In this document: piece by piece, positions 30,240 through 32,757 of the stretch
How positions within the stretch are numbered: the first letter of the stretch is position 1
Layout: each line of letters starts with the position of its first letter
From: Gammaproteobacteria bacterium
GTDB lineage: Bacteria; Pseudomonadota; Gammaproteobacteria; Burkholderiales; Burkholderiaceae_C
NCBI GenBank assembly: GCA_025359085.1
Contig: JANYHL010000064.1
Span: 1-32,757 of the forward strand
Reading direction: 5' to 3'
DNA: 32,757 nucleotides
Position numbers and translations under genes: made by a program
The notes under the pieces: model-generated
The model's input: the letters and a program-made list of their open reading frames with translations, nothing else
Database searches by the model: none
Told to the model about the DNA's origin: nothing

Positions 30240-31711
<1,472 letters not shown>

Positions 31712-31712
<1 letters not shown>

Positions 31713-32036
31713 TGCATCAAAAAATCCTTATTCTTGACTTTGGCTCCCAGGTCACCCAACTGATTGCGCGGCGCATCCGCGAAGCCCATGTCTTTTGCGA
31801 AGTTCATCCATGCGACGTCAGCGACGATTGGGTGCGCGCCTATGCCCGCGATGGCAAGCTCAAGGGCGTGATTCTGTCGGGCAGCCACGCCAGCGTCTAC
31901 GAAGATACGACCGACAAAGCGCCGCCCGCCGTGTTTGAGCTCGGCGTGCCGGTGCTGGGCATTTGCTATGGCCAGATGACGATGGCCGCGCAGCTTGGCG
32001 GCGGCGTCGAAAGCGGCCATCACCGGGAATTCGGCC
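31712..32036 (+). CDS. guaA: GMP synthase, first 108 codons only, broken at a junction
   Basis: The N-terminal class I glutamine amidotransferase domain of GMP synthase, which turns XMP into [23 protein letters not shown] and the nucleophile elbow LGICYG with Cys85 are clear. Residues 98-108 ([12 protein letters not shown]) still match the family, where REFGYAEV would come next; from residue 109 the frame reads unrelated sequence until a stop at 32210-32212. The rest of the amidotransferase, the ATP-pyrophosphatase domain and the dimerisation domain are missing. Residues 87-88 are Gln-Met where the family usually has Met-Gln. Given an otherwise intact guaB-guaA operon, a sequence join seems likelier than a dead gene. 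Confidence 0.9.
32017..32036. other. Junction between guaA and inverted asparagine synthetase sequence
   Basis: Protein similarity to guaA on the plus strand runs to about 32036, while similarity to asparagine synthetase on the minus strand runs down to about 32018. The two overlap in roughly 20 bases that include GAATTC (32027-32032) and make sense in both genes (HHREFG in one, EFPVM in the other). Such shared sequence at a breakpoint is the mark of a microhomology join. Seen: the two matches and overlap. Inferred: how the join arose. Confidence 0.75.
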
Positions 32037-32206
32037 GCGCGGATGAGTTCGGGGTAGCCGGTGCGGAGTTGGTCGTCGCCGCAATCGACGACGTTCATCT
32101 CGCAGCCGAGGTGCTTCGCCAGTTGCACCGCGAGGTCTTTCTCGTCGAACCCCTTGCCCTTCACGGAGATCGTGAACGTGGGGATCGGCCGCCCGAGCGG
32201 CAACTC
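32018..32206 (-). pseudogene. asnB: Internal fragment of an asparagine synthetase gene, inverted
   Basis: On the minus strand this encodes about 60 residues of the ATP-binding synthetase domain of class B asparagine synthetase: [20 protein letters not shown], then [20 protein letters not shown] and [13 protein letters not shown]. Family members usually continue after PVM/PVI with DTSCL, which is replaced here by antisense guaA. The upper boundary is uncertain, around 32190-32212, where the similarity fades. It has neither start nor end of a gene. It lies head-to-head with the 5' end of an asnB gene at 32225, as if a middle part of the same gene had been copied and inverted. The minus frame stays open far beyond in both directions, which is a by-product of high G+C. 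Confidence 0.75.
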
Positions 32207-32224
32207 TTGTGAAGGCGGTGGTTG

Positions 32225-32757
32225 ATGTGCGGGATCGCGGGAATGTTCGACCTGAGCGGGCAGCGGACGGCCCCACGTGGGGTGGTTGGCGCCATGGCGC
32301 GAGCGATCATCCACCGCGGTCCGGACGACGACGGGTTCCTCGACCGCCCCGGCCTGCACCTCGCCAGCCGGCGGCTGTCCATCGTCGGCCTCGCGGACGG
32401 CAAGCAGCCCATCAGCAACGAAGACGACACCGTTTGGACCGTGTTCAACGGCGAGTTCTTCGACTACCCCGAGAAACGCCACGAACTCGAAGCCCAGGGC
32501 CACACCTTCCGCACCCACACCGATACCGAACTCATCCCGCATCTCTGGGAAGACCACCGCGAGAGGATGTTCGACCACCTGAAGGGACAGTTCGCGATTT
32601 GCTTGTGGGACAAGCGAACCAACGAGATCGTGCTGGCCCGCGACCGCTCGGGCATTTGCCCGCTCTTCTATGCCGTTCGCCGGCACGACGACACCGACTG
32701 GCTGCTCTTCGCCTCGGAAATGAAGGCACTGTTCGCGTCCGGGTTTGTCGAACCGAA
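32225..32757 (+). CDS. asnB: Asparagine synthetase (glutamine-hydrolysing), N-terminal 177 residues, cut by window edge
   Basis: The frame from ATG 32225 is open to the right edge. It is a class II glutamine amidotransferase domain: the nucleophile Cys2 is exposed in MCGIAGMF, followed by IIHRGPDDDG, RRLSIVGLADGKQPISNED, VFNGEFFDY (VFNGE carries the conserved Asn-Gly of the glutamine site), TDTELIPHLWE and FASEMKAL. The enzyme takes ammonia from glutamine to make asparagine from aspartate. GAAGGCGG lies about 9 bases upstream as a possible ribosome site. The wording of EFFDYPEKR and the strong G/C third-position bias recall Planctomycetes more than Burkholderiales, a judgement from memory. 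asnB-like genes in polysaccharide clusters are another option for the role. Confidence 0.88.
   Translation, partial: MCGIAGMFDLSGQRTAPRGVVGAMARAIIHRGPDDDGFLDRPGLHLASRRLSIVGLADGKQPISNEDDTVWTVFNGEFFDYPEKRHELEAQGHTFRTHTDTELIPHLWEDHRERMFDHLKGQFAICLWDKRTNEIVLARDRSGICPLFYAVRRHDDTDWLLFASEMKALFASGFVEP

Follow-up and report, generated by a model that had tools for sequence, protein, structure and literature searches.

Gene content of the contig end

The stretch of DNA analysed here, the window, is contig C74 from end to end (positions 1–32757; 32,757 bases), one of 149 contigs that make up a genome of 3,158,350 bases with a completeness of 97.17% and a contamination of 1.63%. Upstream of the chimeric tail described below, positions 1–31711 hold an ordinary series of housekeeping-type open frames, which we take to be lpdA, ndk, rlmN, ispG, hisS, der, hflX, hflK, hflC, hisZ, purA and guaB. 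The stop codon of guaB overlaps the start codon of guaA at 31712, and the open frame that begins there is matched by GMP synthase models over residues 5–111. The feature under study lies at the very end of the contig: the last similarity to the organism's own genus is found at 31972, and the 785 bases downstream of this position consist of three foreign pieces in succession, with all three joins located inside the terminal 816 bases of C74 (Table 1).

An earlier note on this DNA, made from the sequence alone, had described an abrupt junction between guaA and an inverted fragment of an asparagine synthetase gene. Such a junction was indeed recovered with profile models, as the GMP synthase matches are followed on the minus strand by a match of 32000–32221 to Pfam Asn_synthase (PF00733, E 9.2e-6). 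Two details have to be revised. Similarity to GMP synthase had been stated to end after residue 108, and the sequence is GMP synthase-like up to there, but the organism's own guaA ends at 31972, in codon 87. Likewise, a single bad join had been assumed; the junction at GAATTC exists, but it is one of three.

Table 1. Features at the end of contig C74 (window positions)
Feature	Position	Strand	Basis
The species' own guaA, 5' part (GMP synthase), codons 1–87	31712..31972	+	Same-genus identity and N-terminal GMP synthase models
Zone of join 1, own guaA to guaA of another organism	31942..31972	+	Column agreement with relatives
Other-class guaA segment (same phylum), 46–73 bases	31973..32045	+	88% best match over 31956–32045
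Zone of join 2, other-class guaA to inverted asparagine synthetase; contains GAATTC at 32027–32032	32019..32045	.	
Internal piece of asparagine synthetase (synthetase domain), planctomycete-like, inverted	32019..32199	-	PF00733 match
Zone of join 3, conserved with neither piece	32200..32224	.	10-base block identity of 0.13–0.34 to both pieces over 32200–32219
Start of asparagine synthetase gene, codons 1–177, runs off the contig end	32225..32757	+	TIGR01536, PF13537

The gene for GMP synthase is divided between two contigs

When 31712–31975 was compared in windows of 66 bases, the best of eight same-genus loci reached 83–95% identity, as opposed to 52–76% for the best of nine loci from other classes, and across guaB and guaA the best same-genus DNA identity was 83%. 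A search of the whole genome with the C-terminal GMP synthase model returned a single match, which is located on a different contig, C56 (positions 9–770; 364.2 bits versus a curated cut-off of 338.75). The full-length GMP synthase protein of a congener aligned with positions 3–770 of C56 over residues 281–538, free of stop codons and with 94% identity; the same protein also matched C74 from residue 1 onwards, and its two further matches were weak (27% and 32%). The gene for this glutamine-hydrolysing GMP synthase is therefore divided, with codons 1–87 at the end of C74 and residues 281–538 on the first bases of C56, and both parts match the known enzyme. Unlike in the known gene, the middle section is absent from this assembly. 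The earlier note had pointed to a guaA elsewhere in the assembly as informative, and this was found in part: the 3' portion is present on C56, but the search with the congener protein recovered residues 88–280 (193 codons) from no other part of the assembly. The lack of this section is what is expected of a contig gap, and in the cell the missing middle of guaA is presumably intact.

All 22 windows of the guaA part on C56 were closer to the same-genus set than to the other-class set. Next to guaA on this contig, at base 826, comes an open frame that encodes 212 residues and that we assume to be PaiB-like. In three of the five same-genus stretches examined, guaA is followed by a homologue; none was found in the other two, for which 1.3–1.7 kb after guaA had been fetched. 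On balance, the neighbouring gene lends support to C56 as the true continuation of guaA. Loss of guaA was considered and rejected, as the remaining part of the gene resides on C56 and scores above the curated cut-off; nothing in the analysis demonstrates such a loss.

A short guaA segment of other-class origin and the limits of the first two joins

The limits of the first join were read from alignment columns in which the relatives do not agree with the window. Own-genus rows are excluded at 31973, where none of seven agrees, and other-class rows are excluded at 31940–31941 (none of nine), with none of the nine agreeing at 31951, 31963 and 31969 either. The overlap common to both parents amounts to 31 bases at most (31942–31972); it falls to 3 bases if the foreign parent carries the bases of its nine relatives at the latter three positions, where the differences are in third codon positions. 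Over 31972–32037 there is a sharp crossover, the best identity being 0.89 for the other-class and 0.67 for the same-genus loci, although the nine other-class loci had been chosen for matching 31955–32050 and are favoured there, the windows on C56 being the fairer control.

A search of 398 genomes across the phylum with the 96 bases of 31955–32050 gave matches in 109, the organism's own genome included. Leaving the latter aside, the best 33 rows were all from other classes, with a top value of 88% over 31956–32045. The best match from the same order reached 76% over 89 bases (a shorter one 85% over 48 bases), and same-family rows that cover most of the piece were at 74–75%. Judging from their protein residues, we take the best other-class matches to be from Alphaproteobacteria. 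The exact parent of the foreign guaA piece was not found among the 398 genomes, where the nearest sequence is the one with 88% identity.

At the second join, asparagine synthetase rows are excluded at 32018 (none of 15 agrees) and guaA rows at 32046 (none of nine). The overlap is at most 27 bases long and shrinks to 7 bases (32019–32025) provided that the guaA parent agrees with all nine relatives at 32026; its length is given as bounds, being derived from relatives rather than from the true parents. About 20 shared bases around GAATTC had been claimed for this place in the earlier note: the shared stretch is real and the figure lies inside the bounds, but the length can be narrowed only to 7–27 bases. 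An exact search of viral contigs with a 33-base pattern spanning the second join gave no matches.

The tail ends in planctomycete-like asparagine synthetase pieces of opposite orientation

Within the window's genome, the DNA of 31700–32757 matched only itself. Among 89 genomes of the genus, 13 matched 32040–32757, one of them being the organism's own, and the matches of the other 12 were weak (66–85% identity over at most 242 bases). The earlier note had suggested a comparison of the origin of 32040–32757 with that of 1–32000; in database searches, the former was planctomycete-like and guaB–guaA matched the same genus. A derivation of the tail from the organism's own asparagine synthetases was rejected on the grounds of the match to itself only at the DNA level and of a protein identity of 44% at best, reached by a full-length copy on contig C136. 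Three asparagine-synthase-like matches (L092, L093 and L095) lie within about 33 kb on this contig of genome G000, the full-length one above the family cut-off.

The inverted piece has its best relative in L043, with 77% protein identity over 60 residues located about 880 bases into the gene, and its homology ends by 32199 in an alignment of 15 relatives. The forward frame from 32222 matches TIGR01536 (E 4.9e-53) and PF13537 (E 4.4e-40) and encodes a glutamine amidotransferase domain; positions 32225–32755 correspond to the first 177 residues. Resemblance of the forward piece to its relatives begins at the start codon, 32225, and the intervening 32200–32224 are probably the bases upstream of this codon. 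Upstream bases are not conserved among the relatives, so that the third join can be placed no more precisely than within this zone.

A scan of genome contigs for relatives of 32225–32757 revealed 122 stretches that encode one, and from these we retained the 79 best distinct loci. Among these best 79 of 122, 23 had at least 74% protein identity, and 21 of the 23 bear planctomycete labels, the remaining two being labelled 'Bacterium' (L004) and 'Bacteroidales bacterium' (L015). The closest relative of the forward piece is L048, labelled Isosphaera, with 82% protein identity, and several others are labelled Gemmata or Gemmataceae; genus labels such as Isosphaera, Gemmata, Fimbriiglobus, Limnoglobus and Singulisphaera are taken here as those of planctomycetes. 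The exact parent of this piece, the longest of asparagine synthetase, was not found in the scan, the nearest relative having 81% identity at the DNA level. The family PF07596, presumably abundant in planctomycetes, had no match in the window's genome, but none of 14 control genomes matched either, so that this result is no evidence of absence.

Both asparagine synthetase pieces were detected in 51 of the 79 loci and, in all 51, they lie on the same strand with the internal piece 735–906 bases downstream of the start; in the other 28 loci, the internal piece gave no match at E 1e-4. The head-to-head order seen in the window is thus unnatural for asparagine synthetase, and a natural head-to-head pair was rejected, as none of the 51 relatives with both pieces has the opposite-strand arrangement. 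The forward start piece and the inverted piece probably derive from one and the same asparagine synthetase gene.

A chimeric contig end as the most probable explanation

The sequences on the sides of the joins differ in origin, with guaB–guaA matching the same genus, 31956–32045 another class and 32225–32757 planctomycetes. Pieces of three lineages that are serially joined at the end of a contig, together with a gene that resumes on another contig, argue for a chimeric contig end, and we put the probability that the broken guaA is an artefact of this kind and not biology at about 97%. The foreign tail, the three joins and the remainder of guaA on C56 are established by the data. The earlier note had already preferred a chimera, of the molecule or of the assembly, that was joined through microhomology, and the planctomycete-like tail, the weak matches within the genus and the location of the guaA remainder on C56 all agree with it; it was the search with the tail and the search for guaA elsewhere in the assembly that settled the matter here.

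The following course of events would account for the arrangement. In the true chromosome, guaB would be followed by guaA in the normal way. Near codon 87, a stretch that is conserved between the guaA genes of different bacteria would have diverted the assembly, or the molecule from which it was built, from its correct course. A second jump at no more than 27 shared bases would have led into a planctomycete asparagine synthetase gene, and a third jump, with inverted orientation, to the start of a gene that is probably the same one, at which point the contig stops. The genuine continuation of guaA would have been assembled separately as the start of C56. If near their upper bounds, the overlaps at the first and second joins would suit an assembler that joins on short k-mers, and the inversion at the third join may suit template switching as well. 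Misassembled chimeric contigs in metagenome-assembled genomes are described in the GUNC paper as a known and relatively rare error (PMC8201837). As in the contigs treated there, fragments of different organisms are united in a single contig in our case; there is no substantive difference, and C74 has three successive joins.

Alternative explanations

The joins may have formed in vitro, by template switching during multiple displacement amplification (MDA) or library preparation followed by faithful sequencing, a sub-case of the artefact reading whose odds are included there and to which we tentatively assign somewhat less than an even chance. The third join resembles an inversion inside one gene with an intervening deletion and, according to Lasken and Stockwell (2007), 406 of 475 MDA chimeras (85%) were inversions, with as many as 21 complementary bases at the joins (PMC1855051). 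The window has in common with these chimeras an inverted join across which less than 1 kb seems to have been deleted, as well as short overlaps. The same authors report, however, that intramolecular events were favoured, whereas two of the three joins in C74 are between organisms, and the upper bounds of 31 and 27 bases for the overlaps would fit the short k-mer joins of an assembler as well. Joining at an EcoRI site during cloning, offered in the earlier note as another route to an artefact, fares worse and must be considered very improbable. A GAATTC does lie inside the second join, but most asparagine synthetase relatives lack the site (T at 32030 in two of 15), compatible sequence continues on both sides of its six bases, and the zones of the first and third joins (31942–31972 and 32200–32224) are devoid of EcoRI sites.

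A real rearrangement in the cell, in which guaA was broken by insertion of or recombination with foreign DNA, would be in line with an assembled contig that reads through, and yet we regard it as extremely unlikely: from about codon 87 on, four pieces of three lineages follow each other in series, one of them just 46–73 bases long, no mobile-element family was detected in the three tail frames scanned, the other 88 of the 89 genus genomes are without a similar tail save for the short weak matches in 12 of them, and the remainder of guaA is intact at the start of C56. It is barely conceivable that the sampled population harboured a cell line with a recombined and planctomycete-interrupted guaA that lived on scavenged guanine, while C56 came from cells with the intact gene. 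For the preferred reading, a chimeric contig end, the consequence is a quality warning only: C74 should be trimmed from base 31973 to its end. If this is not done, an annotation pipeline might list two spurious features, namely a guaA cut short and an asparagine synthetase gained from planctomycetes by horizontal transfer.

Loci used for comparison

The other-class guaA set comprised nine matches with fetched loci (L103–L111), and fifteen of the 79 asparagine synthetase loci entered the column and block analyses of that gene. Nine same-genus loci (L083–L091) were fetched. The comparison in 66-base windows was performed with eight of these, without L090, while the column and block analyses were based on seven, without L090, of which only the first 113 bases match, and without the divergent L087. 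All nine were part of the guaA comparison in which the departure of L087 (genome G015, contig C80) became apparent: this same-genus guaA start diverges from its congeners at about residues 62–103, where GMFTMAVQLGGLVAPSSKREFG replaces GMQTMAHQLGGLVTSGHQREFG, and could represent either real divergence or another local chimera.
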